Shown here piece after piece: positions 25,001 through 63,062 of a DNA stretch of 64,000 bases. The stretch is taken from NCBI GenBank assembly GCA_015143295.1, contig CM026574.1, positions 15,688,938-15,752,937 on the forward strand, written 5' to 3'. A program made the translations under genes and the position numbers. The notes under the pieces are model-generated. The model made no database searches. It had not been told where the DNA came from and was given only the letters and a program-made list of their open reading frames with translations. The first letter of the stretch is position 1. The number at the start of each line of letters is the position of its first letter. Origin of the DNA: Tetracentron sinense (Eukaryota; Streptophyta; Magnoliopsida; Trochodendrales; Trochodendraceae).

Positions 25001-28000
25001 AAGGCCTAAGGCCAGAGAAATGGCTTTTCAGTTCCTTGTAAACCTAGAATTGTTCTAAGCAATGAATATTTTTTGTTGTAATACTCCATTATGGCTACCT
25101 TTAGGCTGCTATCGGATAGTATGGCGTATCTCAACCATATAGAGTAGAAACTCTAAGGCTGACAAATGGGTACATGCAACAAGTACATGTACTGAACTGG
25201 ATCTATCAATGAACAACCTAAGGAATGATCACTGTCAAATGACAAAAGGTAGTTCAATATACAAATATACAGATTGTCATGAACCTGAGAGATTGATATC
25301 TCTTCATGCATTGTCTGCATGACTTTGATGATGCCAATCAGTGATGTCCAATAGCGAACTCCATACGGGTCCATTGGGTCATGTACATGGTGTATGAAGA
25401 GTGTGCGAATGCTCAATAAGAAATCCACCCTCCACCCCCAATAGGAGAGATGATGTCCAATAGATTGGACTCAAAAATCCAGCCGATAGTTTTGGTTAAA
25501 GAGGTTTATAAAGTTATTTTGTATATAAAATATCTTTATATTATTTATGAGGCGTGCTAGCCCTACTCTCGGTCAAACTCTACTCTCAGCCTTCACCAAC
25601 CACCTATCCATTATCAAATCAGTTATGGTGGTTAAAGCACTATCTCTCATCAAGAATGGGCAAATGATTGGTGGAGACTGAGAGTAGAGTTTGACTAAGA
25701 GTAGGGCTAGCATTCCTCATTATTTATAGATTTCCTAAAAGAGTTTTAATAGTCCAATTCTATGAGAACTATCACGAATACAAATCACATAAGTCAGGGG
25801 CTTGACAGTTATGTAATATCCATTCCCAGTGACTTATATGGAGTATCGTTAGGTGGAGGGACTAATTTATAAATATTTGTAAGAAAGGACCTCGCTTGCA
25901 ATTCTCTTTTCTCTAGGGGTTCAATTGCAATGTGTTGATGGACAAAATTGTGGTTAGTGAAAATCCTGGGTAGTCTCATAAAATTCAGACAACCTAAAAG
26001 AGAATTTGGGAAGAGTCGGTCAATGGGTACTCCCATATATACTCCCAAATATACTCCCTAATCCTAACCGTTTATAACCAACCAATAGGGGTCTGGATTT
26101 GAGTTGACTTATTTTGTCTTTTCTAATGCCACATCAGCACAAATCCTAACCGTTTAATAATTGAGATAAACGGTTAGGATTTGAGAGTATATATGGGAGT
26201 ACACTTTGGGAGTATCACTAGACTAATTCATTTGGGAAAGGAGTTTTGTAGTTCCCATGAAATAACAAAATTTGTGCAGTGGGTCCCACAACTAGATAAG
26301 GAAAACCTTTAAGATCCCACACATTAGAATCCTCCTATCCAAGCTTTACATTGTATTTATTTTCTTTGGACCTCATTGGTGGGCTTAATAGTTATTAAAT
26401 AATTATTGGTAGACTTTTAAGTCAATCGTAACTAATTATTTATTTATTTAATATGGTAGTTATGGGACCAAGATTAGGGTCCCATGCCCCTTTGTTGTTC
26501 TTCCCTAGGAGATGACATAATTTGTTAAGGGAATGCTATGTCCATTTTCCTTCTCATCAACTTTCTCCTTTAGTAAACAAGTCTACAAAAAAATTGTGAC
26601 AGTTTTTTGTGGGGCCCACTACCTTTTTTTGTCTTCTTGTTTAAAAACAGAAAAAGTGAATGAGTAGGAAAGTGGATCATGCAATATCCAATTTGTTATG
26701 TTATCCTTATCTAATTTTATTATGTAGTTATCTTTAAAAAATGTTTCTAAATTAAAGATTAGTTTATGTGACTAATAACCATACAATAAAGGCGGGGACG
26801 TCCCACTGAAGGGAGAGACCTTCTCTCTCCTAATCTTGGAGATTTAATTAGATAAGGAGTTGTCTAATATTATCTCTAATTAATAAGGATTAATAATTGT
26901 AAGCACCCCATTTTTGCACCACTACTCCTCTCCTATTTTCTTCAAAGCTCTAAGGAATCCACTCGAATTCCCTTTATTATAGCCCAACACCATACCCCCA
27001 ATCCAAGTCCTAGATCCCGAGGTTTTATGTGGAGCCTGATTGCACCAGACCCAGCAGGTTTGCGCAATAACAGGTAGTCGTGGGTCCAGCTACACGGTTA
27101 GCTCACTGGGTGGTGTAGGGGGACAGCATGCCCCCTCAGGCCTCGCCCAGGGGCTTGGGGGCAGAACTTTTTAGGCGACTCGAGCAATCCAGGGTTCGCG
27201 TATGTTCCCACAACAGAACAATTCTGCTAAAATTTCGGATCTCGCTCGAGCAAGAATTTTAGTTGCATCTCGCTCGAGCAAGAGTTTTAGTTGTATCTCG
27301 CTCAAGTGAACTTCTCACTGTTTCACCTTTTCATTTTGTCTGGCTTCCCGAGAGCTACTTGCTCCAGCGAGTCCAATCTGGCTGGAGTGAGTATCACAGA
27401 GAACGTCGTTCTCACTTGTCTGAATTCACTTTTGGTCACCCAATCACAGCCCATTCCCTCATTCACGAATCTACCCTAACCCCACAAAAGTCTATAAATA
27501 CCAACCGATTTGCCCATTTCCAGGGAATCAAAATTTCCCACAAGAAAGCACTTGAAGTTCAAAACCTCCCAAAACCCCTGTGGAAAATTCTGAGAGAGTG
27601 AGCACCCAACCCCAAATCCGAGATCCTCACAACCCAAGTACCTGAGGTTGAGTTAAGTCTAGGTTGCAAGCCTAGGCTACACCCCTTGCCAGACGACTTT
27701 CCTCTGAACATACCCACACCCCTTGGAGCGTTGAAGGAGGAGGAAGAAGAGTAGGCCCTCTCCTTCATTTTCTTTTTGTCTTTATTTTCATTTCAGTTCC
27801 TTATTTGCTTTTTATTTTCATTTCAGTTCCTTATTTGCTTTTAGATTCTAGTCCATTTCTACAATCATCGTGGAGACTCATCCCTTTTCCTAGGTAGGGC
27901 CTCCCTATGTCCTTTTCAATGGCATAGGGGGCCCCCGTTGCTAAAGAGGGGATGGGTACTCCTTCATTTCCACTTCTTGTTTACATGTTTTTCTTCCTAT

Positions 28001-31000
28001 TTAGGTTTTTCTACTTAGCCCAATGTTCCCAAAACCCCAAGGGGAGGTGCTGTCCAAAAGACAGCACCATGATGGAATTTGGTTCTGTTACAGAACCTAT
28101 TTGCCCGAGCCAACCTCACCCCACTCGAGTAAATAGGCTCTGTAATCGCTCTTGAATCCCCTCCAGACTCTCTATCTGACTTGGGTTAATCTTTTAAACA
28201 CGGTTAGATTGCCTTGAGCACTCCAAAGCTCACAGACCTTCTTAACCCTAGTTGTAAATTTTAGTGAGCATCCCGCTCGAGCAAGCCTATATTGGCTCGA
28301 GCAAGATCCTCCAGAGCAAACTTGACTGCAAATACAGTACCCTTTTATGACTCCAAGTTAATGCAGCAAGCCCCTGAATTCCCAGACTTCTTAACCCTCC
28401 TCGGGTTTAAGTTTTAAGCACGATTAACCCTGCCAAAACCACCCGTATGCTCCTAGGCATGAGCTTAAACCATCATCTTGCTCCGGAATGAGCCTAAACT
28501 ACCTAATAATGGACTAAAATACCAAAAACATTCAAATATGCAAAACCCAAAAAAGTGCAAATCAATCAACCAACCCGCACTCGATCGAACTACACCGGTC
28601 TGATCCTACCAAGCCGGGTATGTAGGCAACCCCAAACGATCCAACCTCCCCTAGGGTAGTTTCCCTTTCCACTCTGCTTTGCCTCATAATTAGCATAATT
28701 CAAATAACATGCTAATTTCTTTTGAGATTCATCTTAATTAGCTTAGACTTAGGGAGTAGGTTACCATCCTCGGATGGGGGTCCGGGGGTGCCTAACTCCT
28801 TCCCCGGGCCTTAACCGAATCGCTTACCTAGAATTTCTAAGCATACCATAGGCCTTGTGCATTTCAAATCTGGGTTCCTATTTTCCCATAAATAAATAGG
28901 TGGTGACTCCAAAGTAGGAGTTTAGCGTCGTTCCTCCGCAGGGCTCGGCCCGAAAGAAAAGGCGGTAAATTCCAACACTCACAAGAATCATAATTAATAT
29001 GTGGAATAAAAGAGATTTATTAGGAAAGAGATTTGATCTCTAACAAACTAACCATTCCATACGTAAGGTGAGAGAAAGAAAAGCTTCTCCTCCAAGAATT
29101 TTTAACGTAAGGCAATAAAAGGGGAAGAAAAAAAATCTCTTCCCCAAGAATTCCATACGTTGGATCTAGAGTGAGAGAAAAACTTCTTCTCAAGAAATCC
29201 CCATACGCAAGAGAGAGAGAGAAGAATATCCTAGGTTCTTGATTCTTGATAAAGATCCAAGAACACCATTGAAGAAAAGAGAAGGGCCATCATCTTCTCT
29301 GAAGGAAAAGTTTGGAAATCAAGTAAGAGGGTTCGTGTGAATCAAGAGGTGGCTAGACACTTGGACAGCTAAAGGTAAATACTAGCATGCTTTGTTTGAA
29401 AGAACCATGACATTTACATGGAAAGATTCATAGTTGTTAAAGACGTCGCCTCAGTCGGTCGCCTAGGCGACCAGGCGTTTTGCTAGGCTCAGGCAACTAG
29501 CCGCCTCAAGCGGTCATTATTAAAAATCTGATATATAATATTATTATTGTTTAAGGATATAACAATTTATTTTATTTGAATATGATTATTCCGTAAACAA
29601 TCAAGTATGTTTCTCTAATGTTAACTTGTTCTCTTTCTCAATTAGTGGACCAATTAGTCTCTCTCCCTCTATTTATGGGTGGACCATATAATCTCCATTC
29701 ATTTTTTTTTTCATGGTTGTTAAATTACAACTAGCTCAATTGACCCAATAACATATTAAGAGCCTTTAAATGCCCCAAATTCCTTTTAGGACCCCCAAAA
29801 CTCTAATATATTCATATTTAAAGGGATCTTTTATAATTTAAATAAGTGCAGGCCCTATAGTTATATATTTTACTATTCAATATTATTTTTATTACTTATC
29901 TTGAGTATAATAAAGAAAAAGAAAGAAATGAGAGTAAGAGGTATGACATCTCCCTCTCTCCCCCTCTTCTTTCTCCCCTGTTCAACGCCACATTTCACTG
30001 TTGGACTATTTTTCTACTTTTATTTAGTATTATATTCTCCCATCTCCTTCCTCTCTCTCTCTCTTTCCTATTGGGCTGTCTATTTTTTATCTCTCATAAT
30101 CTCTTTCTCCCTCTTTCAGCAATCATTGTGGACTTAATTTTTATTCCATTTTTTCCAACACTTGAAATCCCCATTTATTATTCTTAGAACTGTCACTAAC
30201 GGTGGTTCTATCAAAGTGCATCCTGACAACAGTGTAATGTATATGAATGTAGAACCTCTTATAAAAGAAAATGCATCATACATAGATCTCATATTAGGGG
30301 AATTTTTGTAACAAAAAGTTCATTAGACAACGCCTCGGGCACCTCAGGCTACGGCTTCAGGCATCTATGGGGTTTGTCGCCTCAAATCGACTGGTCGCCT
30401 TGACAACTATGGCAAGATTCTTTTTGAATTATGAAAAAAAAATGGATCTCCTTTTTGGAAGGCATTAACTATCATATCATCCTCATCTACAAAAGATACC
30501 AATGGGAGACTTTCTTCAGGATAACATATTTCTCGCTAGCAATCCTAAGTATGTGTGATGCAAAATCTCCAATCTATCCAAAATATCTCATGGTCACTAA
30601 TATTTGCAAGATGGAACAAACCCAAAACTCTGCCTGCTCCCAGAGATACAGCAGCATTAGAACTTAGAAGAGAGACCCCTAGGACAAAGATAGGGACCAT
30701 TAAAAAAATGTTGTTCTAAAACCATTAAACCTTCAACTGCCATTACCACCACTTCATTGAAAACCTTACAGCCGACTTTGATGGAAGTAGACTTCCAATG
30801 TGCCTCCTTTTATTAGGCAAATTCCCACTACCGACCGCAGGTTAGGCTTCCTGAAAGAGGAACCATCAAAATAAATATTTTGGAAGCTGACCAGTACGGC
30901 TTCAGCAAATTTCTTCTTCAAGTGTTACTTCCCATACCAATTTAAAAATATGCTCAAAAATTCAAAATCAGTGAAGAAGATTCCTCAAGTTCTAGGCGCC

Positions 31001-33589
31001 CGTTAAATAACTTCAAATGAATTAATCTTCAAGGACTTGAGTAGACAATTAAAATTACCTTAGAATTAGACCTTAAAGCCAACTAGATGGAAGTACACTT
31101 CCAATGTGCCTCCTTTTATTTGGAAAATTCCCACTGATGACCTCAGGTCAGGCTTCCTGAAAGAGGAATCATCAAAATTAATATTTTGGAAGCTGACCAA
31201 TACGGCTTCAGCAAATTTCTTCTAGTGTTACTTCCATACCAATTTAAAAACCATGCTTAAAATCAGTGAAGAAGATTCCTCGAGTTCTTTGAGAATAGAC
31301 GCTCGTTAAAATAACTTCAAATGAATAAATCTTCAAAGACTTTAAGTAGAAAATTAAAATTTACTTTGAATATCCAACAATTCTTTCAAGACAAACTCTC
31401 AGACAAAAGGCAAAAGGACACAAGGACAAAAGCAGACTACGACTGTTTCTAAACTTCAAATGGCTTTCTTTTGATTCTTTATTCCTTCCTTTGTTTCTAT
31501 AAATCCCGTATAGCTAAACACCAATTATGGAAGATGCTGCCATGGAATAAGTTCTCCAAGAACCAATTAAACAGGTGGACCCAGTAATGCATGTCAAAAG
31601 ATGCTGTAATTAATGTCTCCCACTGCTATCTTATAAAATTCTTGTAAGCACATGCTGGCCAAAACAAGTTTGACTTTCAGGGTGAGGAAATTGAAACCTC
31701 TTGTGAAGAGGATTTTTGACACCATTCTTACAAATAAATAGACATAGCCAGATCGTTTGAATCTAAGTAGTAAGAAAAAAATAAGGTACATGCACAGTTT
31801 TTATTTAAATATAAATGTAAGAAAAAAAAAAACTGGAGATATGATACAACTTGCTTTAAAAATCCAACCTAACAGAATCTGCTGACAGAAAATTGAGGAG
31901 ATATAGAAGCTATAAATAAAAATAAAATGACTTCATCAAATAGCTAACTAGCTCAAGAATCACTAAAGCATTGGAAAATAAAATGGAAACAGGAAAACAC
32001 ATCACGAACCTGTTTGAGAAACTCCTCATGCCAATTGTCAAGAGTATCAAATGATTTATGCACATTGACGTCATATACTAGAACACAGCAATCTGCCCCT
32101 CTATAAAATGCAACACCAAGACTCTGAAATCTTTCCTGTCCAGCTGTGTCCCAAATCTTTCATTGCAGATATACAGCAGTTGAGCAAGAGTAAACTCAAT
32201 GAGAAAGATCTTGAATAAGTATAAAAACAAATAAATACTAGTGAACTAAGAACCCACTTGCAGAGTGACGAGCCTGTCATCAATCTGTAGTTCCTTGGTG
32301 ACGAAATCGGCGCCAATCGTAGCTTTGTACTGTTGGCTAAACCTCTTATGTACGTATCTATAAAAGCAGTTAATGGATACGAATTCCAATAACACAATGC
32401 GAAACTGGATCCTTAACAAATTAAAATCAAATGTAGAACTTGAATTTACACACAAAATTAGCCTGATGAGGAAAGGCTTCACAATGAAAGTGCTACAATG
32501 TTTCAAAATGCACAAATTATCAGCCCCCAATATCTCCAAGGCTGTAATAATCCTTCGCCCACTACTGGTCGGATCAAGAATAATGCACAATAAAATTCTC
32601 AAAACAAAAGCATAATATGTCTAAATACAAAAACACAGATTCAAATTTCGCAGGAAAAAAAAGAGTAATTTAAAATCCGCATAAATTATGGATAAAGAAT
32701 AATGTACCATAAAATCCTCAGAAACAAAAGCATAATATGTCTAAATACGAATTCAATTAGTGGAAAATTACAGAAAATGGCCAAAGTTTAAATAACTGAT
32801 CATAAATTCACAGCTTCAAATTATGCAGAAAAAAAAAGAGTAAATTATGGATCAAGAATAATGCACCATAAAATCCTTAGAAACAAAAGCAGAATATGTC
32901 TAAATACGAATTAAATTAGTGGAAAATTACTTAGAATGACCAAAATTTGAATAACTGATAACAAATCCAACAAAAAAACAGCTTCAAATTATGCAGAAAA
33001 AAAGAGTTAAATAAATTCCGCATAAATTATGGATCAAGAATAATGCACCATAAAATTGTCAAAAACAAAAGCAGAATATGTCTATATACGAATCAAATTA
33101 GAGGAAAATTACTTAGAAAGGCCAAAATTTGAATACCTAACCAAAAATTCAATGAAAACACAGCTTCAAATTTCGCAGGAAAAAAAAAAAAAGTAATTTA
33201 AATACCGCATAAATTACAAAAAATAAATAAGAGAAACTATAATTATATATCAATCGCTCAAAGAAACGATAACAGTAACTAAAAATTTCCGCAAAAGTGA
33301 GGGGAAAAAAAGCAACAAGAAATCATCAATCGCTAAGAACGAAACAAATCAGGAAACATTGTCTAACAAATCCAATAGTTATCCAAGGATACTGATTCAT
33401 CAAACACGTCTTTCCCACCCTGAATTCAAAAGAAACGGCGTGAGAAGTAAACAAAACAAAACAAAACAAAATTTCCTAAAAACAAACAAAGAAGTCGAGA
33501 ATTCGTCGAAACCCTAGAAATCCAAAGCGACCGTACCCACTGTCGCCAAGCACGATGATCTTGAGCAACGTTCGACTTCGCATAGCCAT
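7034..33589 (-). CDS. RABG3: Rab7-type small GTPase (RABG3 subfamily), seven exons
   Basis: Exons on the minus strand are 33589-33537, 33419-33393, 32357-32258, 32156-32010, 9154-9074, 9005-8860 and 7100-7034. All six introns are GT-AG and the phases join exactly. The total is 621 bp: 206 codons plus TGA, the usual Rab7 length. The protein starts [18 protein letters not shown]. It has all G motifs: GDSGVGKT (P-loop), YKATIGADF (switch I), WDTAGQE (switch II), NKVD and ETSAK. It ends GGGCAC, a CxC double-geranylgeranylation signal. Family knowledge: Rab7/RABG3 acts on late endosomes and the tonoplast in vacuolar traffic, autophagy and vacuole fusion. Exon 2 is a 27-bp microexon coding most of the P-loop. 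Intron 4 is about 22.9 kb and full of transposons. The exact reading-frame fit argues for one gene. The alternative is two broken tandem copies, each supplying half. A TATA-like box lies about 131 bp upstream of the ATG. Confidence 0.85.
7672..7890. repeat. Local duplication with (CA)n microsatellite in Rab7 intron 6
   Basis: The phrase AAAGACTCTTGAGTGCATGT occurs twice (near 7694 and 7852), and TAATTATTCTTGATTCTT also occurs twice. A CA dinucleotide run of about 30 bp lies between them at about 7748-7777. This is a simple local tandem duplication within intron 6. Confidence 0.75.
7913..8545. mobile_element. hAT-like non-autonomous element in Rab7 intron 6
   Basis: The ends TGAGGGTGGAGCCAGG and (reverse-complemented) CAGGGGTGAAGCCAAG form an imperfect TIR. 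The flanks GTAGGTGC (7905-7912) and GTAGGCGC (8546-8553) make an 8-bp target duplication with one mismatch, pointing to the hAT superfamily. The interior holds about five diverged repeats of 75-80 bp, each with TATGCCxxxTxAATAATAT and TTTCAAAAGTT. A 21-base G run lies at 8004-8024. There is no transposase. Confidence 0.7.
8004..8024 (+). repeat. Homopolymer run of 21 G
   Basis: An unbroken G run is followed by TTC and five more G. It can form G-quadruplexes on the plus strand and a C-tract on the Rab7 sense strand. The exact length is prone to assembly error. Confidence 0.9.
9155..10770. other. Intron sequence without identified elements
   Basis: Nothing gene-like is seen. From about 10330 the sequence becomes very AT-rich. 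At 10679-10775 a segment of about 45 bp (AAGATCCTCCAA, GTTGGGAGA, GGAGAGG, TGGATG) is repeated directly, right before the gypsy element. Confidence 0.5.
10771..14240 (+). mobile_element. Shrunken Ty3/gypsy (chromovirus-like) fossil with LTRs
   Basis: Related direct repeats starting TGATGCGGACAT lie at about 10771-11195 and 13697-14240. They share TTGGGAAGATGTGCA and a GTGATGxCATGG tail, and are read as the two LTRs. The internal part is on the plus strand. A retropepsin-like stretch (12141-12371; [15 protein letters not shown]) is followed by the pol-start phrase [16 protein letters not shown] (12592-13185). This runs directly into an integrase C-terminal-like stretch ([31 protein letters not shown]). 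The central pol core is absent, so this is a large internal-deletion derivative. It is broken in several places, and the divergence between its LTRs suggests considerable age. Confidence 0.7.
12490..12725 (+). repeat. 30-bp minisatellite inside the gypsy fossil
   Basis: About eight units of 30 bp follow the form GAGCTxCCAxTAGCTCCTGA, then GTCCCTTGTG. In the element's frame they read as a ten-residue repeat close to [10 protein letters not shown]. The array lies between the protease-like and pol-start segments. Confidence 0.85.
14241..14849. other. No gene identified
   Basis: Pyrimidine-rich sequence at 14260-14480, then sequence with GAGCATGGTGGACA repeated (near 14660 and 14692). It may be internal sequence of the neighbouring fossils. 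I see no domain. Confidence 0.4.
14850..15665 (-). mobile_element. Tat-type gypsy pol fragment (RNase H to start of integrase)
   Basis: Minus-strand reading gives [35 protein letters not shown] and [15 protein letters not shown]. This is the extra (aRNH-like) RNase H typical of the Tat lineage of Ty3/gypsy. It is followed by [13 protein letters not shown] and [20 protein letters not shown], the zinc-finger start of integrase. It is a broken fragment with no LTR of its own seen. It is oriented opposite to the gag-bearing piece at 18662-22063. Confidence 0.75.
15666..17261. other. No feature identified between Tat pieces
   Basis: No convincing frame or domain on either strand. The flanks suggest this is untranslated or lost internal sequence of the Tat-type fossils, but I cannot show it. 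Confidence 0.4.
17262..17880. repeat. Tandem array, about 78-bp unit, about eight copies
   Basis: Units share AGAACTCAGCTTTAGAGACT, GGGAAGCAGCCCTTTTACTG and GCAAAATATTCTTGGCAACC, followed by GTCGTCACAA. Copies of the GAGACTGGGAAG phrase or its variants occur near 17272, 17346, 17424, 17544, 17604, 17672, 17752 and 17833. Tat/Ogre elements are known to carry tandem repeats in the untranslated part near the 3' LTR. The position just before the LTR at 18662 fits that. Confidence 0.85.
18662..22063 (+). mobile_element. Tat-type gypsy fossil: LTR, leader, gag and protease start
   Basis: An LTR-like block starts TGTAGAACCTTACAAATT at 18662 and ends near 19530 before the PBS-like phrase CACGCCCGGTGGGAC. 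Gag follows: a start-like frame (19987-20217), capsid-like phrases in several frames at 20500-20800, then [13 protein letters not shown] and [10 protein letters not shown] (20912-21124). The 243-residue frame 21357-22088 carries [12 protein letters not shown] and FGDFIPKWF, and ends in the protease-lead phrase [13 protein letters not shown]. All of these are known parts of Tat gag-pro. The element is cut at about 22063 by the repeat that follows. It is broken in many places. The purine-rich tract just before 18662 also resembles a PPT, so this LTR might have served a neighbour on the left. Confidence 0.72.
22064..22992 (+). mobile_element. hAT-like non-autonomous element, left end missing
   Basis: It is collinear with the intact copy at 29429-30411. 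Shared parts are a GTTTAAGGATATAA start, CAAGTATGTTTC, a CTCTCTCC-rich centre, TTGAAATC, ATCAAAGTGCATC and a GCCTCGGGCxCCTCA end. The right TIR (AGACAACCATGG) is present, but about 100 bp at the left, including the left TIR, is missing at the junction with the Tat fossil. A LINE is inserted just beyond its right end. Confidence 0.7.
23019..24623 (-). mobile_element. 5'-truncated L1-type LINE (ORF2 C-terminal part)
   Basis: The minus-strand frame 24623-23397 encodes the end of the reverse-transcriptase region ([38 protein letters not shown]) and the zinc-binding zf-RVT domain ([19 protein letters not shown]). Then, after a frame change near 23470, come [14 protein letters not shown] and [10 protein letters not shown] poly-T at 23019-23027 marks the 3' tail. 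The 12-bp direct repeat CTTCAGCATATG at 23007-23018 and 24624-24635 is the target duplication and sets both ends. It is missing ORF1, the endonuclease and the RT catalytic core. There is no RNase H domain. Confidence 0.9.
24636..25554. other. Intron sequence, nothing firm
   Basis: No TIRs or domains recognised. A minus-strand frame at 25428-25153 has no family I recognise. Confidence 0.4.
25555..25712. mobile_element. 158-bp MITE with about 40-bp TIRs
   Basis: The left end TGCTAGCCCTACTCT, GGTCAAACTCTACTCTCAG is mirrored at the right by CTGAGAGTAGAGTTTGACTA, AGAGTAGGGCTAGCA, leaving a centre of about 75 bp. The arms are nearly perfect. The target duplication is not clear. Confidence 0.8.
26027..26202. 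mobile_element. MITE with GTACTCCCATATATACTC ends
   Basis: GTACTCCCATATATACTC and AATCCTAACCGTTTA on the left are mirrored by TAAACGGTTAGGATTTG and GAGTATATATGGGAGTAC on the right. Extra TACTCCCAAA/TTTGGGAGTA words next to the ends may extend it to about 26220. Confidence 0.75.
26203..26897. other. Intron sequence, nothing identified
   Basis: AT-rich sequence with no frame, TIR or RNA gene that I can support. Confidence 0.4.
26898..28983 (+). mobile_element. Solo LTR, family with TGTAAGCACCC ... CTCACA ends
   Basis: It starts TGTAAGCACCCCATTTTT and ends CCAACACTCACA. The flanking five bases are ATAAT and AGAAT (one mismatch). It contains GGTGCCTAACTCCTTCCCCG and GGTGGTGACTCC, which occur in reverse complement in the solo LTR at 39848-42629, so the two are the same broad family in opposite orientations. 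A TATA-like CTATAAATA lies at about 27492. No internal region remains. A 31-bp tandem duplication (TTTCATTTCAGTTCCTTATT) lies at 27779-27842. Confidence 0.75.
28984..29428. other. Purine-rich intron sequence
   Basis: It is rich in GAGAGAAAG words, with CCATACGTAAG, CCATACGTTGG and CCATACGCAAG repeated at intervals of about 65-110 bp. It resembles a transcribed leader but I cannot assign it. Confidence 0.4.
29429..30411. mobile_element. hAT-like non-autonomous element, both ends present
   Basis: The left end is CATAGTTGTTAAAG; the right end reverse-complements to CATAGTTGTCAAGG. The target duplication is GAAAGATT (29421-29428) against GCAAGATT (30412-30419), 8 bp with one mismatch, which fits hAT. 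Sub-terminal CGCCTAGGCGACC words are palindromic. There is no transposase frame. A left-truncated relative lies at 22064-22992. Confidence 0.75.
30768..31363. repeat. Tandem duplication of about 300 bp in Rab7 intron 4
   Basis: Two adjacent units (about 30768-31067 and 31068-31363) share ATGGAAGTAxACTTCCAATG, CTTCCTGAAAGAGGAA, TTTTGGAAGCTGACCA and AGTGAAGAAGATTCCTC. No coding frame survives in either. Confidence 0.85.
32565..33220. repeat. Intronic tandem repeat, about 170-190-bp unit
   Basis: This is the parental array in Rab7 intron 2. The phrase GGATCAAGAATAATGCACC or a close variant recurs near 32572, 32690, 32838 and 33030, with AGCATAATATGTCTAAATAC and TTAGTGGAAAATTAC between. It is shared with the pseudo-copy at 880-1370. 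Confidence 0.75.
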
Positions 33590-33719
33590 GGCGAAAAAGT
33601 GGAGAAATTTTCCAGTTCAGGAAACGAATGAGAGAAAAATACAAGGGGGAACGGAGAAAAGGGCAAGCCGTTTGTCTTTCATTGATAATTGATACAAACA
33701 CCGTGCGAGTTTGCCGACC

Positions 33720-33727
33720 TATTTATA
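33720..33727 (-). promoter_or_regulatory. TATA-like box of Rab7
   Basis: TATAAATA on the minus strand lies about 131 bp upstream of the Rab7 ATG at 33589. This gives an expected start site near 33690-33700 and a 5' UTR of about 100 bases. Confidence 0.6.
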
Positions 33728-34620: not shown

Positions 34621-34898
34621 TTATAAAAACAATTTATTTTTGTACAATTTTTTTTTATCTGTATTATTTTGTACCTGTCAACAATATACAATAAATTTAC
34701 TACATTCATACAATTTTCTACCTGTAATTCATCCAATCCAATCAATAATTATATATAATAAAATAATTTAATTATATATATATATTAGCACTCCGAAGGC
34801 GCTCTCAACCCTATTCTAAATTGAAATCTGGCACTCTCACGCTCTCGCTCCTACTCCCACTTTGGTTACTTAGCCACAAACTCAGTCCTAGCTACAAC

Positions 34899-35248
34899 TA
34901 GGGGTGTATCAACTCAAGTTGAGCCAAGTTTGAGTTCGGTTTAGACTTCAAGCTTGCAAAGCTTGGCTCGAACATAATGGCTTGGCTCAAGCTCGAGCTT
35001 TATTATTAAAAATTTATTTTTATATTTTAAAAAATATTTTATAATAATAATTATTATTATAAATATATTTACTATTATATTAAATTATATATATTAAAGT
35101 ATTTCAGTCGAGCCGAATCAAACGGGGTTTGGCTCAAGCTCGTCTTGAACACAGTTTCAAGCTCGAATAAAGGCTCGGCTCGGCTTAGTCAAAAATCAAG
35201 CTTGATCAAGCTGAGTTGCCAAGCTAGCTTGGCTTGAATACACACCTA
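34899..35248. mobile_element. hAT-like MITE, GAGCC family, copy 2
   Basis: The ends are TAGGGGTGTATCAACTCAAG and, in reverse complement, TAGGTGTGTATTCAAGCC. The 8-bp flanks GCTACAAC and GTTATAGC differ at three sites, all transitions, as expected for an old insertion. It carries GCTCAAGCTCGAGCTTTA and an AT-rich centre, as in copies 1 and 3. Confidence 0.75.
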
Positions 35249-39110: not shown

Positions 39111-39114
39111 TTTG

Positions 39115-43530: not shown

Positions 43531-43555
43531 AAAATAAAAAAAAAAACCCACAAAC

Positions 43556-47687: not shown

Positions 47688-47952
47688 CAATAACTTTATT
47701 ATTTTCAGAAACCAATAGAGGAACCATAGTTCTAGATCGAGTAATTCTATCAATAAAATTCACATTCTTCCTCTTTTTGCTCTAAATTTTCTCTTAGGAG
47801 CTGTAGAGCACAAGTTAGAGAATAATTCAGATTAAAGCAATCTTTGAGAAAATTTTCTCCCCTCTTCCTTAAAAAGATCTATATCCTTTTTCAAGAATTG
47901 AGGAGTGTTAGAATGATATTCATAAGATTGAGAGGATTCCCTCAAAATATTC

Positions 47953-49905
47953 TCAGAATAAAAAAAATTTATTCAGTTTATAAGTCCCTTCCAATCTTCC
48001 ACCAAGTTTTTTCCACATGTGATAATGTTTAAAAAGGTGGTTATTCAATCTAGACATTATGTTTTCTTTCACTTTAATTCCTTGTATTTCAGAAAAGGAT
48101 AGCATATTTTCAAATTCCAGAATTTTTCCAGTTCTACTAGGTTCCAACCAACAATTTTCAGATGTATTCTCATGATTTAAATTAAAAACTTGATTTGTAT
48201 GGGGAGAGCTATATACCTCATCCTCCGAAACTATCTCTGAGTCTGGCTGATTCTCTAAAAGATCATCAACAATTTTAAAAATTTTTCCAGTGGTCATAGA
48301 GTTTTCAAGAATATCTTTTAGTTGTTGTAATGAACCAAGACTCGAGATCATACCTGAGGAAGGGAGATGGATGATTTCTGAATAAGTGATAGGAAGATCA
48401 ACCTTACCAATATTTTCCACAGCTACAAGAAGATCCGATGTCATATCATGAAATTTTAGAGTCGGGACTGTTACACCATCTTGCCTATAAACTTCAGCCA
48501 TGCAAAAACTTGTGGCTTGAGCAAATAATATTCGGTCTCTTTGGAGTTGCTTGGAGCCTTGAATCTGATCTGAAACACTACTAGGAGGTCTAGTATCCTT
48601 ATTAATCTCAATAATAGAAAGAAGCATAATATCTTGAGAGATCTTAATCGGGACTGCATCACCATCGATGATCAGATCTGCTTCTACCAAGTCCTTTTCT
48701 GCAGTATCTAACGGCAATAGAGAAGAAATATTTACAGATCTGAAATTCTGATCGTGGATCTGAACTGGGCTACAACCAGACATGATTTCTATTGGAATAT
48801 CTTGCTGTTTTTCTTCATTAACAATGATAATAGATGGCAAAATACTGTTAGATGAATTAGAGAAGATACAAGTATCTTTATCATGGTTGTTTGGAGTATC
48901 TGTGGATATATCTACCAGAGGCGAGGAAGAAACTCCAACATCTTGTCCAGAATCTTGATCCATAGGATTCTTTCTTGTCTGGGATGATAGAGGGTGATCC
49001 TCCTTAGGTGTTTCCAACGTATGGAATCTCTTTAACACCCATTGCTTCATTTGGTTCTTTGGAGGTTCTTCAACCTCTTTTCTATTTGCAGATCTGCTAG
49101 TGTTGACTCTACCTATCGAACAAGAAGAAATCTCATGCCCAAGTTTTTTGCACTTCACACAATATCGAAATTTTTTCTCGTACTCGACTGATTGCCACAC
49201 CTTCCATGATCTCCAACACCCAACCAAAAACGATCCCGGTTTTTTTTGAGAAGATCTATCTCCACACAGATTCTTGCAACACTCGGCCTTGTGAGAGATT
49301 TGGTTGCTCCATTGATCTTCAGCACTTTCCCAAAAATGCCACCAATAGAAATAAGTGCTGAATCATTGAATAGGTGAAGGGGATGGTTTGGGAAACTCAC
49401 CCAAATTGGAACTATGGATGGTTCCATCCCCGATAAGAAAGAAGGGGTCCATTTGAAGAAGCGAAATAGAAAGCCATTGATGTATACTACTTCTTTAAGC
49501 CAAACCATTAGGTAATCTTCTTCCGATGAAAATCGAAAAAGAAGATGCCTAGCATCAAGAATTCCAACAGAAAAAGCAAGCCGTAAGCCCTCTTTTTTTT
49601 TCATATGGATCTTTATTTCATCCAGTTTAAGGCGTCCATAAGAACACTTTGCTATTAGGGAAAACTGGTGGGGAGCAGCAAGAATGGAAGACTCTTCTTC
49701 AGAAAAAAAAATGGCTGGTTCACCTCTATAAGAAACTGATTTTTTCAGTGGTGTAGAAGGAAGAAGAGAGGGGGTATTAACCAAGGAAGTAGATGAGGAT
49801 TTTGCAAGAACTTCAGCAAAAGAGAGGGGAGGGTCTGGTGGTCTTGAGGAAGATGATCCTTCCCCACCGCCGGCAACCCTAGGGTTCGCCGTTGGAGCAC
49901 GATCT
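47953..49905 (-). pseudogene. LINE ORF1: DUF4283 nucleic-acid-binding and CCHC knuckle
   Basis: From about 49900 the frame reads SFAEVLAKSSSTSLVNTP, then a DUF4283-like domain (RLAFSVGILDARHLLFRF, WTPSFLSGMEPSIVPIWV, FGKVLKINGAT). After a frame change near 49230, at a homopolymer of eight A on the coding strand, it reads FRYCVKCKKLGHEISSC, a CX2CX4HX4C zinc knuckle, and a long polar tail. Plant L1 ORF1 proteins bind the element RNA. No clean ATG is seen at the start. Confidence 0.8.
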
Positions 49906-51178: not shown

Positions 51179-51211
<33 letters not shown>

Positions 51212-54156: not shown

Positions 54157-54285
54157 TGTTATTTATTATTACGCCAAACAATGAGATCAACGTATCTCAT
54201 TTATCTTATTCTAAATTCAATCGTAAAATGTTATTTATTATTTTGCCAAACAATGAGATCAACGTATTTGAAGGGGAAAATTCCC
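54157..54285. repeat. Short tandem duplication
   Basis: TGTTATTTATTATT, then GCCAAACAATGAGATCAACG and TAT, occurs twice with a 73-bp offset. Confidence 0.8.
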
Positions 54286-55550
54286 ACAAACTCGCCACGC
54301 GTTAGTAGTTGATAGAAGGTAGAGAAGAAAGCACTTCAACTGTAGAAGAAAAGAAGAGGGTCGGGTGTGCACCTGAAATAGACTCCGATGATCAAGTCAG
54401 TATAAGAAAGAGACGATGAATAGTAAAACACTGTAACACTGAAATATTGTGAGATAGAACTCTGAGATGGAGGTTTTTGTATTATGTCTCTGGATAAACA
54501 CTGGAAAATATGCTCCAAAATCTCTGATCCTATGCATTGGGTCTCAAGGGGGTATTTATAGGTTTCAGCTCAGGATGCCCATAGATGACCATCGATGGCT
54601 TGGATGGCCATGCCATTAGCTTTACACTCATTACCAAATATGTCAGACATATCTAGAGCATTAAGTGTTTATACGCGGGAGCCTACAATCTCTAAGTCGG
54701 TTTCGGGTTGAAAACCCATCTGAAGTGACTAGCAATAAATGCTAGGACAGTGCTTTCCACCTAACATCAGAAACAAATAATCGCCTCCTGAGGATCGGGT
54801 CTTGATAGTCGGTCTCGCTATCGACTAAAGCACGGGTTTGTTGTTCACAACGAAGACGATATCGTTGTCTCGACAACTACAAGTTCGTTGTCTAGGAGAC
54901 AACGTTATCGTTGTGCAGAGCACAACGAGTCCATTGTCATGCACACAACGAATAAGTACTCAAAAGCACATACGAGCTCGTATCCACTATTATAACATCA
55001 AAAACATGATTGTAGTCACAACATACATATTTAAATACGAATTTTATCCTTTACACTTAGCCCCTTTATGATGTTTTGAACGTAGTTCAAAATTTTGAAC
55101 GCAGTTCAAAGCGTCATAAACCTCTTTGCATTTCAGGAGAAGAATACCGTAAGTCACAGAAATTGCTTGTGCTCCATTCTCCATTTTCTGCTGTTTATTA
55201 CTCCATTGTATAGTCACTGATCTCTTACTTGCACTATACGCAAAGATGTATTGCCGTGCCAGCCGTAATATGTTCACAAATCTACAATGCCTCATTAATG
55301 TATGACAGACTGTCATCATTGCTTTGCACGAAACTCGAGACGTTTCATTTGCTCTGACGGTTACTCTGTCTTTAAAAGACAATCATGCCCTTGTTGTCGC
55401 TAATGTGTACGTCTGAAATGAAGGCTAATTTCATCCTAAAGAAAGATTAGTCTGACATGCTATATTTAAAATTTATGGAAATGATTATCTTACCCCTACA
55501 TTTACCCACGTGAATGGTTACGATTGGGGCTATGCCCGTCTTTGCACTCT
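54285..55550. mobile_element. LTR-like promoter block with inverted-repeat clusters
   Basis: A TATA-like box (CCTATAAATA) lies on the minus strand at about 54551-54560. A dense inverted-repeat cluster (54841-54960) sits on its upstream side. A second pair of palindromes, TTTGAACGTAGTTCAAA (55075-55091) and TTTGAACGCAGTTCAAA (55094-55110), lies upstream of the plus-strand TATA at 55560. I read this as LTR-derived sequence bordering the gag-like fossil, but the LTR ends were not resolved. Confidence 0.4.
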
Positions 55551-55559
55551 GGAATTGCC

Positions 55560-58500
55560 TATAAATAGAAATGTGAAGAACTTCTTCTCTCTACTCAAAC
55601 TTGCACTATTACTCTGCCGGATTTGCATCTTTCGACGATTTGTAGCTCCTTGCTCTCTCTTTGCTTAGCACCGCATTCTGCTTGGTAAGACTTTCTTCTC
55701 TGCTATTTGCTCTAGTTTGTCATTTCATTCATAGCTACTGGTTGTTCGTTTGCCCTTAGCCCCTTGCTGATTTTCTGCGCCTTAACACACTTGGCACATT
55801 ACTAATTCCCTCTCTATACTTGTTTTCATTCTACCATCAGCCTTTGCACCATGTCTGCCGAAATCGTTAGAGTTGATAGCGATGATGAAGTCAGTTGCTC
55901 TGTTAGCACTCCTCACGGTGCGATTGCTACTGCTCTCAAACCCAAACCAAAACCAGTATACAAATATGCTCTTGACCACTATAGAACTCGATACGAAATT
56001 CCTCCTTATGTTTATCTTCATTTTAATGAAGAGGACATCCATCCTGACTATCGCTCCTTCTGCACTACTATTTACCTTGCTCAATTCGAAACTGGACGAC
56101 GATTTCCATTAGACCCCGTTGTTGATTCCGTCCTCGCTGTCGTTCAAATAGCCCCTGGACAAATGCACCCAAAATTTTACAAGTACATGTCTCTGATGAC
56201 CAAGTTCAACAGAGACAGATATAATATACAAGCTAGACATGTCTTCCACTTCCACCACACTGTGAAGTGCTGAGGGACCCCCCGAGGATAGAGACAATAC
56301 CTACTTCACTTAGAGTCAGAAACCCAAGATCCCTGATTTCGTCACACACCTCCCCGATATAGAAAGGGACTGGAAAGAATTACCCTTCATCAACTCCGGT
56401 GCATGGAGAAATGAAATCGCCCATCCTATTCCCAGCGAATTCTCCTTAGATTTGCTGAATTTGCTCTACTTCTGCTACTACATTTATACATTTCTGCCAC
56501 TACTGATAACAATTTCTTCTGCACAGAAATCTCCAAACCACGATTCACTGAACTTATGCCCGCGGAAGAACAACCTCTACGGGATATCCGCAAAGAGAAA
56601 GGGGACGAATATATTACTTGGAAGCCACTGCCAGCTCCTGAGTCTACACTTGCTGCGGATAACACTCTTCAAGATCTTAATATTAATGCACCTGAACAAT
56701 AGGTTAGAGAAAGAATGGTTGAACGTATGACATTATTGCACAGAGCACCATGATCAACCCGTCCTCCTCGCCTTACCACAATAGAGAAGAAGGCTGATAA
56801 GAGAGAAAGAGAAACAACTCTCAAAACACTAAGAGCAAAACGAGCTAGACGAGAAGCAGAATATGACCAAAGGCTTCGAGAACAACAAGGAAAAGAGAGA
56901 GCCGCCACAACTTCTATTTCACCCGAGAGAGATAGCGACGAAGAACTCTTTGGCTCAGACGACTTACTAGAAGATGGTCAACCTCTGGTCACCAGAATGA
57001 AGACTACCAATACCATGATTCTGACCCCTTTGCTTACTCTTGCTACTACTGCTGCTCCTGATCCCAACGCTGCCTCATCTTCTGCCCCACAATGAGAAAA
57101 AAATACAACGAAAAAATTTGCCGAGGAGTGGAATCCCGTCTTCCCACGCGGATACACACATCCCACAATTGCTCACATGACGATGGATCGTGAATTTATA
57201 GCCACATCTATGCTCTTCGCAATGAGGCTACCCGAAGACATCGCTACAACGAGAAATCTACACTTCATGGGGAAGTTCGGCGCTGCCACCCGAGCTATTA
57301 CCACGGTAAGGATTATACTTTCCTTTACACACTTTTATAATCAATCTACGCACCTCCATACTGATAACAGTCCTCTCTTCTAGATGAGTAATATGCTTGT
57401 TGAGATGTATGAAGACTATAATAACATCAGAAATACATCCACCAGACTAAAGGAGAGGGTCTTCGATCTGGAGAAGACAAAGGCAGAGGAGGCAAAGATG
57501 CTAAACCATGAACTGGCGAAGATGCAGACGAAATTAAAAAATGCTGAAGACAAACTCTCCTCAGCGATCACACAATGAGACACAGCTTAACAAGAGGCTC
57601 GCAAAGCTGAAGAAGGAGAGAAGAAAGCACTGGAACAGGTTGAAAAAGTCATCCTCCAGAGCAGCGAACTAGACGAGATCTCCAATACACTGTGCAGACA
57701 GCTCGAAACATCTGAGGCAGAAAAAGAAACCTTGGTGAAACAGCTTGAGGAGGCAAATGCCATAAAGGAGAAAGAGATCGAGGCCGCAAAAGAGGCTCTA
57801 ACGGAAACTCTCTGCATCCACTTCCAAACACAGATGGATTAGCTGATAGATGAAGACCGGAGAGAGACTGAAGACATAATAATGGGGCAACTCCGAGAAC
57901 AAGGAAGACTAACCGATTCTCAGTCTGATACCACTACTCAGGAAGACGCTCAAGAAGATACTTAGCATGGCGAAGAAGAAAGAAATTAAAGGACCTCTTC
58001 TACCCACTGAACCAGCTCCTGATACACCTGCTTAGCCTACTGATTCTCCATTGAAACTTACTACTGTAATTGTTATGATAGATGATGATCCCGTTGTATA
58101 GCTTTGCCCGCTATCGCTTTACTTCGTTGTAAATTGTTCATAAGTGAAATAGTTTTTGGCACATATGTCTCATTCACTATTTTGCACTTTTTGACACTTG
58201 CACAAAAAGCATATAATACGCATATATCATAGGAAAATAAGATAGAATAATTCATATGCTCTATGTGATGACAATACACACTTAGTATGGACACAAAGGA
58301 AAGCTATTGGAACTCACACACCCAGGAAATGACGCATGAATATATCGAAGAGATAAGACACCATGCTTGACACTATACAAACTATTTATCCCAAATCCTT
58401 AATGGACCCGTAGTAGGGCATTATGGTAACAGGCTCAGATAACATTGTAGACCACTCGTTTGCCTGAGACAATGGCACTGACGGATTCACAGATGCCCCA

Positions 58501-58850
58501 CATGAGTATTAAAGATTTGATGATCAGTTATTTGATAGCACATTTACGATATTATATCATTCGATTACTCATAGAGACGACCTCATGCACCAAAGAAAAA
58601 TGATGCAAAACTGATAAGCTAAACGGAAGCTGAAGTAACATAATTATCACTGACCTTGGTATCTCCGGATCTTATCTCTATTACGCTATACTCGTATTAT
58701 TGGAGATCACTCTTGTTTGTTAATCACTAATTATACTGAAAAGGCACTAAACACCAGGATAAGATAGACAACGAAAGTGAGTTTATGCTAGCGAGATCAT
58801 GTCAACGAGTCTGAGATCGAGACAACGAGGACGAGTCCTCTCCAAGCAAT
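55560..58850 (+). mobile_element. Gag-like coiled-coil fossil, 'putative gypsy-type transposon' family
   Basis: A plus-strand TATA box (CTATAAATAG, about 55559) precedes a coding fossil. From 55851 it reads MSAEIVRVDSDDEV, IPPYVYLHFNEEDIHP and VVQIAPGQMHPKFYKYMSLM, like the plant gypsy-type transposon (Transposase_28-like) N-terminal domain. Later parts include FPRGYTHPTIAHMTMDREF (57135-57190) and a long Lys/Glu coiled coil (57384-57960). The whole resembles the known non-autonomous plant gag-like proteins. It is broken in roughly half a dozen places or more. No protease, RT or integrase is seen. 58000-58850 is untranslated and unassigned. Confidence 0.55.
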
Positions 58851-59683
58851 TTCTTCCTTAGAACCCTAGGTTTTCTCTCATCTCTTTGCCAAATTAGGTT
58901 TAGAACCCTAAAACCCTCAAAATAGAACTTATATTTATAGCCTAAGGGTATAAAACCCTGATTTTCAAACTTTTTAAAAAATTATGGGTGCGACTACGAT
59001 CGATCACACCTACATTGCGATCGATCGCAACTCTAGTGCGATCTATGTACCTGAGGGTGATCTATCGCAAAACACACATAGAGATTCTGTAATTTGTTGA
59101 TTGAATGCGATCGATCGCACCATACCTACGATCGATCGCAGATAACCCAGCTCATGATTTCTCATCAGAAACAACACCGGCATCCTTTCTTCTTCAACTT
59201 CAGCCCATCAGCATACTTATTTTACTTTAAAATATTTAAGTGAATGTTTTATTTACTTTAAGCTTTAAATTAAAATAAGAAAGTACCCTCCCCCCATTGG
59301 GATTCAATAAAAAATACTAGAAAATCCAATTCCTTATAAATCAAAATCTCATTTTCCAGTTTTAGGCTAAAAACTGAAAATCTCGTTCATCGTAAGATTT
59401 TCGATAGACGTCTATACTTAATAATAAAATCTCATAAAATCACATACCTTTATTTAACCTATAAACATCCATTTCCGAGAAAAATCATCTCTAAACTCAA
59501 CAATTTATGTTTTTGCTAAAACCACACCCCTTCTAGAAATTCTGACATTCCTGCACTTAGTCATTTTAAATATTTAGTTAAGATCATTAAGGAATAAGGC
59601 ATCACATATATTAAAACATGTTTTTGACCATTTAAATCCTTATTAATCGTATTGATGACATGAAGAAAATTTTGGTCTCTACA
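58835..59683 (-). mobile_element. Truncated LTR
   Basis: On the minus strand it starts TGTAGAGACCAAAATTTTC at 59683. It runs through GCGATCGATCGC repeats and a TATA-like CTATAAATATAAG (about 58931-58941) to AACCCTAGG and TTGCTTGGAGAGGAC, where it is cut. The order and the wording (TTTGGCAAA, GAGAAAACCTAGGGTT, TTGCTTGGAGA) parallel the solo LTR at 60161-62631, so they are distant relatives. Confidence 0.6.
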
Positions 59684-62600
59684 ATAACGGATCCATGGGT
59701 GCCAAATCTCCAGTTATTTAAACCTCATGTTCGGCAGCCTCCCCCTTCGGATGATATGCGAGTAGCTAATCTTATTGTTTCGACTAATGATTGTTGGAAT
59801 GTGGCACTCCTCGATGATCTTTTCTAGAGGTCAACCATTAAATAAATCTGCAAACTCCCTCTCAATGTCTCCAACTCCATTGATAGATTAATTTGGCACC
59901 ATTCTCATTCCGGTAGTTTCAAGGTGAATACTACTACTCACCATGCAAAACAAATTGTCATATCCAAGAGGCCCTCTTCTAGCAACCAAGCTTCTTCGTT
60001 TGGCCGTCTATGGGCAAAATTTTGGCGCTTCCCTATTCCACCCAAAATCCAAGTTTTTGTGTGGCGAGTCTGTCACAATGCCTTATCAGTAAATACCAAC
60101 CTTTGGAAAAGATCTATGAGGGTCGATGACTGGTGTCCCCTTTGCAGGAGTGGGGATTGCTGTAGAGACCCCGAATCTTTTTCATGTTTTTACTTCATTG
60201 TATTAGGGGTATTATAGTCCTTGTGATGTTTTGATGTTTATTGTATTATATATTTATTTGGTGTGGTGTAAACTAGGCTTAATCAAACTTGTAACGGAGT
60301 GATGTCATATCACACCCTAAACTTTAGGAAGCTCTAGTTTTGGCACCGTTTACCGGAATTGAGTGATTCTTAAACCATTAGAAAGGTGTGGGAACCCTCT
60401 TCGAAGTTCATGTTTAATGTTTTTCCTTATTTTGAGTTTAAGCCAAGTCAATGGTGGGTTTTATTTGATGGAAATGCAGATCAGTCAACTTTGGGGACAA
60501 TTTAGTCTATTAATTAAGTGAAATTTAGAAATTCTAAAATAGTAGAAATGTTCGTTTTCGAAAGATGAATCCAACGCAAGTTGAATCGTCGAAATCCGAC
60601 GAACGAGTCAAAAGTTATGGCCGAAACAGTAAAGCGGGTCAAAAATCTATAGGCAACCGATCGCTCGGTCAGAAGTAGCGATCGATCGGTCCAAAACCGA
60701 TTGATCGGTATCTATCGACTGGTCCAGAATTTTATATGGGAAAAATTTCCAGAAAATGCTTTTTTGACCGATCGACCGGTCAAGAGCACCGATCGCTCGG
60801 TTGAGAACCGATCGCTCGGTCATAACCACCGATCGCTCGGTCCTTCGTGTTTTTGCAGAATTTTAGTAAGGGCTTTTTGGTCTTTTTTTCTCAGACCTTG
60901 GGGCTATAAATAGGGGGTTCTACTCGAAATATTAAAATACCCTACCTATTTCTAACCTAATTTGGCAAAAAGGGGGAGAAAACCTAGGGTTTGAGAGAGA
61001 GGGTTGCTTGGAGAAGAAGGAGGTTGCTAAAAGATTGAGAGGAAATCTTGGAGATCATCTTCAAAGCTTCTCCAAATCTCCTCGGGAGCGTTTTGAATCC
61101 AAGGGAAGAATTCCTAAGGTCGATATACTATCCTAATCAACTTTATTTTAAGGTTTTGTGAATGTTAAGATAATAGAAATGATAGAAATAGAGCTTAATT
61201 ATGTTTTCCCTAATTTTCTATGAAGTAAACTAATTTTGGATTGAAATGTGGATGGAAATGTGGATTAGAATGTGGATGGAATGTATGGAGGATGGGAAAT
61301 GTATGGAGGATGGGATTAATATGTGGATGTGAATAGTGAATTGATTGTATGGATGAATTATGGTTTGATGAATGCTTGAAAACATAGAAGGGAAATGGAT
61401 TCATATTATGCGTACACAAGGTGTTTGTGAAATGCTTGAAAGGATAAATGCTATTATACTCTTATGAAATGGTGGTAAATTGATTATGAATTGCGATATG
61501 AATTATGATAGGATATGTATATGCGAATTATTTGTTAAGTATGTCTAATTATTTGCATGGAAATTAATAGTCGGGAAGATAAGAACTTAGAGGAACATCT
61601 CTCAAACCGGGAATTCTCTAACTATTTGGTATGGGACAGTATAGTGGAGTTTCAATGGTGGGAGATCGGAATCTAAGCAATTACTAACTCGAATGTTAAT
61701 TTCAACACTTAAGTACACAAGCACGTGTATGTTAAGATAAGAGTCTCACAAGTCACACATGTGGACCACAAGCATGAGCATGACATATGTATGACATTCT
61801 GAATAAGCATAAGCATGACATGGTCCGTATCCGCCAAGAACAGTATGTCAACCTGATTCTTAGACATGGTCCGTATCCGCCAAGAACGGCATGTCAACCA
61901 TATGATTTCTAAGGCATGGTCCGTATCCGCCAAGAACGGCATGTCTCATTACTGTGTGATCTGAATAAGTGCATAAGCATAAGCATCTCCCAAGCACGTG
62001 GTCTTATAAGCATAAGCAACTCATAAGTGTATTGTCTTCCAAGTCTAAGATTCTCACAAGTACACGAGTCAAGGTGATGATATGATGTATATGCGCACAC
62101 GTTTTTCCGCACTCTGATTATGTTATTATGTTATTGGATATGTTTCTAACTAAATGCAGGTGTATTATTAATGTTGGTTGGATTTTATATACACCGAGTA
62201 CTTTTGTACTCAGCCGGACTTTTGTCTTGGCAGGTTTAGAGCAGGAGTACATGGCGGAGCCGTGAGTTGAGGAAACTTACATCGAGGAAGGAGGAGAAGG
62301 TGAGCCCATCGAGGAAGGAGCCGGAGTCTTGGGTGTCTATACTTCTTAGTTTATGTTTTGTTTAGTTGAGAGAGTTTTGTAATAGACTTTTAGAGGATGT
62401 TGCTCGGTAGACTTTTATAGTTGTGTATCAGACTCTTTAGTTTTAGAGTGAGTTGTATATGTTTACCGTAGACTTTTGCTATTTGATTATAGTTTATATA
62501 CTAGAATTTTATTATCCTCATTTTTGGAGACTCGTGTAGTAAGCCTTGTATGCATGGATTTTAAGCAGGTTAAGTAATGTGGCGATCCCAAAGTCCTATT

Positions 62601-63062
62601 TTAGCCTTGTTGGATTTTTGGGGTCGTTACAATTGCAGCTCGTAATTGACAGGGGCATATTCTTTTTTGCATATCGACCGCCCTGTTGGTGGGATCAGCT
62701 CGGAAGGCTAAGGCGGAAGCAATTCGAGCAGACGTCTGGCTGGCTTCTTCGAGGCAATGGCGTCAAGTGGTGGTGGAGTCTGATTCAAAAGAACTGATTG
62801 ACCATCTCAATATGGTAGCGTAGGAGTATAATTCAGAAGTTCATCCAATCATGGAAGATATAAATTTTCTGATTCGTTTATGCAGAATTGTTAGATTTAA
62901 TTTTGTAAATAGTCAGCCAACACTATGGCCCATGAGTTGGCCCAGTCAGCCCTGAATGTGAGTATCCGTGGCCTAGCCCGCTATGGGCCTACTGATGTTT
63001 CTGTAATTACCCCTTAAGTTTTTCAGTGAAGTTTCTTTTTATCCAAAAAAAAACAAAAAAAA
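59684..63062 (+). mobile_element. LINE 3' fragment, split by a solo LTR
   Basis: Plus-strand 59700-60160 encodes a late ORF2 part (SIDRLIWHHSHSGSFKVN, FGRLWAKFWRFPIPPKIQ, WCPLCRSGDC), a zf-RVT domain. After the inserted LTR, 62637-63000 carries VVVESDSKELIDHLN and FVNSQPTLWPMSWPSQ, the end of an RNase H domain. An A-rich tail ends at about 63062. Stops occur in the first part. It is 5'-truncated; its own target duplication was not found. Confidence 0.75.
60161..62631 (+). mobile_element. Solo LTR, 2.47 kb, perfect 5-bp target duplication
   Basis: It starts TGTAGAGACCCCGAATC and ends GGGGTCGTTACA. ATTGC flanks both sides (60156-60160, 62632-62636). A TATA box GCTATAAATAGGGG lies at about 60903. 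Upstream of it is an array of ACCGATCGCTCGGTC-type words (60655-60840). At 61818-61945 a phrase containing CATGGTCCGTATCCGCCAAG and AACGGCATGTC is repeated three times. It has no coding region and sits inside the LINE fragment. Confidence 0.85.

Follow-up and report, generated by a model that had tools for sequence, protein, structure and literature searches.

The U3 regions of plant retrotransposons evolve fast and their regulators are mostly unknown. Tnt1, a Copia element, carries stress-responsive promoter boxes in its LTR. Features of Sireviruses (Ty1/copia) include multiple polypurine tracts ahead of the 3' LTR. The LTRs of Sireviruses contain palindromic, element-specific repeated motifs (RM boxes) upstream of the TATA box, for which a regulatory role has been suggested (Bousios et al., 2010; PMC2829016). 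In the available text of that paper, a CGG-CCG core is found in all but one of 13 listed elements, and the word tabulated for a Vitis Sirevirus is CGGTCGACCG. Arrays of repeats, sometimes palindromic, are described as common in transposon regulatory regions (PMC10760457). In Arabidopsis VANDAL21, copies of the VANC21 motif YAGTATTAY form arrays of a single orientation, and the element itself encodes the protein that binds them (PMC5735166).

Here we analyse a 64,000-nucleotide stretch of Tetracentron sinense DNA (the window) in which a sequence-only reading had described five unrelated LTRs, each with a private palindrome cluster upstream of a TATA box. The named words are indeed in place, and a TATA box lies downstream of them in the sense of transcription in each of the five blocks, F1 (27492, plus strand), F2 (41992, minus), F3 (54561, minus), F4 (58940, minus) and F5 (60904, plus). 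All five blocks recur elsewhere in the 1.16-Gb genome, as seen by genome DNA search. Their features are:

27100-27500, plus strand: block F1
27240-27312, plus strand: F1 word array, two 16-bp words around GCTCGAGC (27240-27255 and 27268-27283) at a 28-bp pitch
from about 27297, plus strand: third, weaker F1 word
27399-27413, plus strand: TATA-proximal palindrome of F1 with 7-bp arms
27492-27500, plus strand: F1 TATA box CTATAAATA
41850-42350, minus strand: block F2
42108-42183, minus strand: F2 cluster of three overlapping inverted repeats (42157-42183, 42132-42160 and 42108-42136), seen as opposite-strand self matches
41984-41992, minus strand: F2 TATA-like box CTATAAGTA
54450-55150, minus strand: block F3
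54839-54950, minus strand: F3 array of five words CGTTGT-spacer-ACAACG with at most one mismatch (54932-54950, 54909-54927, 54886-54904, 54863-54878 and 54839-54852)
54553-54561, minus strand: F3 TATA box CTATAAATA
54250-55058, minus strand: F3 LTR, approximate limits from 50-bp coverage bins
58780-59280, minus strand: block F4
58995-59140, minus strand: F4 array of TGCGATCGATCGCA and variants (59127-59140, 59106-59119, 59015-59030 and 58995-59008)
58932-58940, minus strand: F4 TATA box CTATAAATA
58836-59684, minus strand: part of the F4 LTR alignable to one relative, with its 5' start at about 59684
60450-61000, plus strand: block F5
60656-60841, plus strand: F5 array of seven ACCGATCGCTCGGT-type words (starts at 60656, 60677, 60696, 60767, 60788, 60807 and 60828)
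60904-60912, plus strand: F5 TATA box CTATAAATA, where the leader shared with F4 begins
60161-62631, plus strand: F5 LTR, 5' limit from alignment, probable 3' limit from the primer-binding site distance in one relative and the end given in the sequence-only reading

The F1 8-mer GCTCGAGC sits in the middle of a 16-bp word that has a single mismatched pair, and the window words form a 28-bp tandem. For F5, the ends of one copy are alignable from the equivalent of window position 60161 (97.8% alike over 408 bp), and in one relative about 2.46 kb separate the LTR start from the primer-binding site, which agrees with an end at 62631; the only stretch of at least 120 aa in the window F5 LTR is one overlapping the LTR start. 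The ends of one F4 copy are 92.3% alike over 416 bp. Upstream of the F3 LTR, homology from 55100 to 56400 is retained in 15-19 of 29 copies, and because of this persistence among copies the F3 block looks like a 3' LTR. In some relatives a primer-binding-site-like stretch follows the F3 LTR, and presumably resembles that of some gypsy elements.

The five LTRs are not all unrelated, since F4 and F5 share their TATA context and leader: CTATAAATA followed after 25-52 bases by CTAATTTGGCAAA has 2765 matches in the genome and none for the reversed control. Because core promoter and leader are common to both, F4 and F5 are, by their sequence, two subfamilies of one lineage. By the domains predicted in one copy each, their internal pieces are Ty3/gypsy: the F5 piece (L109) has gag, RVP_2, RVT_1, RNaseH, H2C2 integrase and SH3_Tf2-1 in gypsy order, with an rve match below its cut-off, and the F4 piece (L111) has RVP_2, RVT_1, RNaseH and H2C2. 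Membership of F4 and F5 in the Sireviruses (Ty1/copia) is thus ruled out by the gypsy domains of one copy each, and neither piece shows a copia-type pol (integrase ahead of reverse transcriptase, RVT_2). In the ten stretches scanned from F2 and F3 internal pieces, neither a reverse transcriptase nor an integrase was matched; L112 gave a single weak DUF7745 match, below its cut-off.

We then define the lineage set as F4, F5 and 14 further promoters, chosen for their differing leaders from roughly 100 listed of the 2765 matches, all on one contig, and consider these 16 promoters upstream of the TATA box. Words of the form CGRTCNAYCG (at most one mismatch) are present in 15 of the 16, 60 words in total, and none was found at this tolerance in L125; two of the 60, the CGGTCCTTCG match in L120 and that in F5, are probably chance matches. 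The outer two bases vary from promoter to promoter: TG..CA is typical of F4, L117, L118, L121, L124 and L126, TC..GA of L119 and L127 (with decay in L123) and AC..GT of F5 and L120, and we infer GA..TC for L129, whose symmetry CpG decay would have broken. The word CGGTCGACCG is carried by L122, L128 and L130, which are placed in the lineage by their leader only; the other word-bearing promoters have cores of the CGATC-GATCG type. The two sides of the word are symmetric at the first flank position in 39 of 60 words (shuffle mean 20.3, maximum 35) and at the second in 45 of 60 (mean 22.4, maximum 35), bearing in mind that the 60 words stem from 15 related promoters, so that shuffle statistics overstate their independence. 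Symmetry stops at the third flank base (20 of 60 words, mean 17.6). Word likeness is 0.85 within an LTR (102 pairs) and 0.67 between LTRs, while spacer likeness is 0.51 within (30 pairs, several of them from a duplication in L117) and 0.40 between; the words of one LTR are thus alike while its spacers are little alike, which argues that the arrays are not just leftover tandem duplication. In Sireviruses a CpG island lies over the RM cluster; in the present lineage CpG observed/expected exceeds 1 in 12 of the 16 promoters, at a G+C of only 0.34-0.49. In L117, whose single promoter has seven words with alternating centres, a two-word unit of about 41 bp is repeated, and the array appears to have expanded. 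A copy of F2 (L014) has a 31-bp insertion that looks like a second copy of one of the hairpin units in the F2 cluster, and therefore the F2 array can gain units.

The words share a pitch of about two helix turns. Perfect CGATCGATCG pairs within 30 bp occur at 16389 places in the genome (reversed control, 1), counts that, like all genome-wide pair counts here, include copies related by descent. Measured centre to centre, 14177 pairs (86.5%) are 19-22 bp apart, 107 are at 10-18 bp and 470 at 23-36 bp; a second excess of about 1635 at 37-40 bp is rough, being obtained by subtraction when one start may fall in two classes. The pattern extends to other words. CGGTCGACCG pairs with 8-14 bp between them number 721 (control 0), and all 50 of those listed are at 18-22 bp, 46 of them at 19-21. 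Pairs of the F1 word CTCGCTCGAGC are found at 413 places (control 0), with 98 of 100 listed 20-21 bp apart, though the window F1 copy has 28. The pitch is therefore not universal: it is 28 bp in the window F1 copy and mostly 23 bp in F3, where 52 of 79 neighbouring pairs have that spacing. Tandem Repeats Finder reports period-21 arrays in F4 and F5.

Enrichment over shuffled sequence was scored as palindrome cover (arms of at least 5, loop of at most 4, G+C of at least 0.35) against 40 dinucleotide shuffles per copy. The expected enrichment holds for the window copies of F3, F4 and F5, whose cover is above all 40 shuffles, and fails for those of F1 and F2 (p 0.35 each). With arms of at least 6 and 200 shuffles, F1 gives p 0.185 and F2 p 0.07, and no shuffle reaches F3, F4 or F5 (0/200 each). 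Across copies, p falls below 0.05 in 2/8 for F1, 19/30 for F2, 23/30 for F3, 13/21 for F4 and 21/21 for F5, and 390 flank windows of 160 bp, taken as a control, have a mean cover of 0.05 and a 95th percentile of 0.21. These loci (F1 8, F2 30, F3 30, F4 20, F5 20) come from genome DNA searches scored on the best 40 of 608 (F2), 2439 (F3), 3085 (F4) and 7031 (F5) candidates and on all 23 for F1; the window's own place (L001, L009 and L039) was dropped from the F1 to F3 counts and the window itself used instead. The F1 and F2 window copies look decayed by comparison with copies outside the window, in which the symmetry is fuller. Among the 14 lineage promoters, perfect palindrome cover has p at or below 0.02 in seven (L117, L119, L120, L122, L124, L126 and L127) and p from 0.07 to 1 in the remaining seven. 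In a whole-window scan with arms of at least 6, the top is partly made of other inverted repeats (5951-6300, 34801-35100 and 46551-46950); the 45 top windows listed include F3 and leave out F4 and F5.

Conservation was judged at non-CpG word sites against the rest of U3 by circular shifts. The predicted conservation of the palindromes among family members was found in three of the five families: 2/336 shifts reach the observed difference in F2, 0/319 in F4, and 4/283 in F1, for which the word spans used lay 1 bp further right than the exact words. In F3 and F5 the words are not better conserved than other U3 (374/491 and 93/453 shifts); F5 copies are 93-96% like the window. The words are rich in CpG, which is where they vary most, and F3 copies retain the half-sites flanking a variable centre. 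In a given family, decay on one side of a palindrome is independent of decay on the other, with no compensation seen between them, paired counts being about as expected from independent sides. Decayed pairs comprise 104 G.T and 83 A.C (p 0.14; F4 34:27, F3 36:20, F2 34:36), in counts that omit two pairs whose commonest state is unpaired and the window-defined third F3 word, the latter because its window version is not the family form. Taken together, conservation, independent decay and the lack of a significant sign of RNA pairing would fit selection on source elements only.

We consider it reasonably probable that the blocks are phased arrays of putative sites for a DNA-binding protein that is dimeric and probably comes from the host: half-site symmetry, a two-turn pitch, words private to each family and a location ahead of the TATA box are what such arrays would be expected to display. 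Each block would form the upstream part of the U3 promoter of a plant LTR retrotransposon, its palindromes being putative binding sites of a homodimeric, probably host-encoded protein, and the spacing of about two helix turns would align several dimers along the same face of the helix ahead of the TATA box, with a possible effect on transcription. The word would be fixed per family or subfamily. In the Ty3/gypsy lineage the core CGRTC-N-AYCG is retained and the outer two bases switch on both sides together, which is what source elements that follow, or evade, the specificity of the dimer would be expected to show; after insertion, single copies would decay, mostly at CpG sites. A host origin of the binder is suggested because the one internal piece examined has no extra Pfam-known gene: the ten longest open stretches of this F5 piece (5.5 kb) gave gag-pol domains or no Pfam hit, a result that would miss a family unknown to Pfam. 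The half-site symmetry and the pitch suit the dimeric factor of the sequence-only reading, which might activate, shield from silencing or recruit silencing.

The Sirevirus RM boxes are the closest precedent, one absent from the sequence-only reading. Like the present blocks, they place several element-specific palindromic words in each LTR, a short distance ahead of the TATA box and within sequence rich in CpG (PMC2829016), and the Vitis word CGGTCGACCG also occurs in three promoters with the present leader (L122, L128 and L130). A palindromic cluster of Sirevirus type upstream of an LTR TATA box is present here, bearing in mind that the window copies of F1 and F2 do not exceed shuffles, and since the F4/F5 internal pieces are Ty3/gypsy, unlike Sireviruses, the repeated-motif design is, as far as sequence tells, present in another superfamily. 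There are also differences: (i), the CGG-CCG core is found in just 3 of the 16 lineage promoters (L122, L128 and L130); (ii), a 19-22 bp pitch and symmetric outer-base switching do not appear in the available text of PMC2829016. Nor was a Ty3/gypsy element with the same design, symmetric outer-base switching and a measured pitch found among the papers listed in searches of the open-licence literature, including the accessible parts of PMC6911290 and PMC10794571; the layout itself is already known. VANC targets, to which the clusters had been likened, are also family-specific arrays of short motifs whose units diverge together, yet the words described here are palindromic whereas the VANC21 motif has a single orientation (PMC5735166), and the single F5 copy analysed shows no gene of the VANC kind; this comparison is not supported. 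Tnt1, the other system invoked, resembles the present blocks in having several copies of short activator boxes ahead of its TATA box, and differs in being Copia and in the stress-responsiveness of its boxes.

A recognition code is a more speculative extension, which we put forward tentatively. The lineage would keep its core promoter and leader and symmetrically switch the outer bases (and one inner pair, CGATCGATCG to CGGTCGACCG) in most of its phased dimer sites, and one host family of dimeric proteins would be exploited across superfamilies, driving the switching or driven by it; a single family is suggested because the design is shared with copia Sireviruses, as is, in one case, the word itself. 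With its thousands of leader matches, one core promoter and symmetric word variants, the lineage is a natural series in which to search for the protein that reads the words and to test a promoter-word arms race, and the regular pitch provides a simple sequence signature to seek in other genomes.

The same arrays might be read as RNA. U3 is also transcribed, as the 3' part of the genomic RNA, where hairpins could serve packaging or dimerisation, or be cut into silencing small RNAs, as could be suggested by the palindrome-rich LTR regions of maize Sireviruses, which are described as small-RNA hotspots (PMC5311732; PMC10760457). The long arms of the F2 cluster, with loops of 3 and 9 bases, would suit this possibility. 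We nevertheless find it unlikely: the overall excess of G.T over A.C is not significant, in what is a weak test given that most changes are post-insertion decay (F3 alone leans to G.T, 36 against 20), an RNA has no need of a two-turn pitch, and loopless, fully palindromic words form poor short RNA hairpins.

Still less likely, in our view, is that the words are recognition sites of host silencing factors and that a change of word is an escape from them. Recruitment of Pol IV through sequence-specific proteins such as REM factors is not without precedent (PMC12270911), and both the CpG-rich words, most variable at CpG, and their symmetric differences between subfamilies could be explained in this way; a pure target should however vanish, yet multi-copy arrays persist and are conserved relative to U3 in F1, F2 and F4. 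The least likely of the explanations weighed here is a neutral one, in which short tandem duplications of palindromic CpG-rich sequence are maintained by slippage and copy number. Tandem duplication is clear in L117 and in L014 of F2, and the period-21 arrays of F4 and F5 point the same way, but neutral duplication would hardly explain why words agree while spacers differ, why outer-base changes are symmetric, or why unrelated words have a common pitch of 20-21 bp. Arrays of sites for a dimeric protein remain the reading that we prefer.

Family-specific words in a shared layout stood up to analysis; their privacy did so less fully, GCTCGAGC being found outside the F1 promoter as well (6076, 28275, 28295, 34991 and 42832). 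Three of these matches are accounted for by 34980-35103 and 42821-42935, which align with each other (77%) and hold GCTCGAGC beside an AT-rich core, and by 5950-6350, which is similar to them by eye; all three resemble a hairpin or MITE-like repeat. The other two words lie 20 bp apart at 28275-28302, about 0.8 kb downstream of the F1 TATA box, a pair that recalls the RM boxes carried by some Sireviruses outside the LTR. Elsewhere in the window, matches to RVT_1, RVT_3, zf-RVT and DUF4283 in separate open stretches at 43848-49904 and 23397-24734 (both minus strand) look like the remains of non-LTR elements, and a zf-RVT piece lies at 59846-60217. A 717-aa open frame at 2627-4780 (minus strand) has PPR repeats and a DYW deaminase domain. 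Finally, 4-1371 has a direct copy about 31.6 kb away at 31650-33216, the two being 81% alike across 1 kb; at the end of each stand tandem units some 180 bp long.
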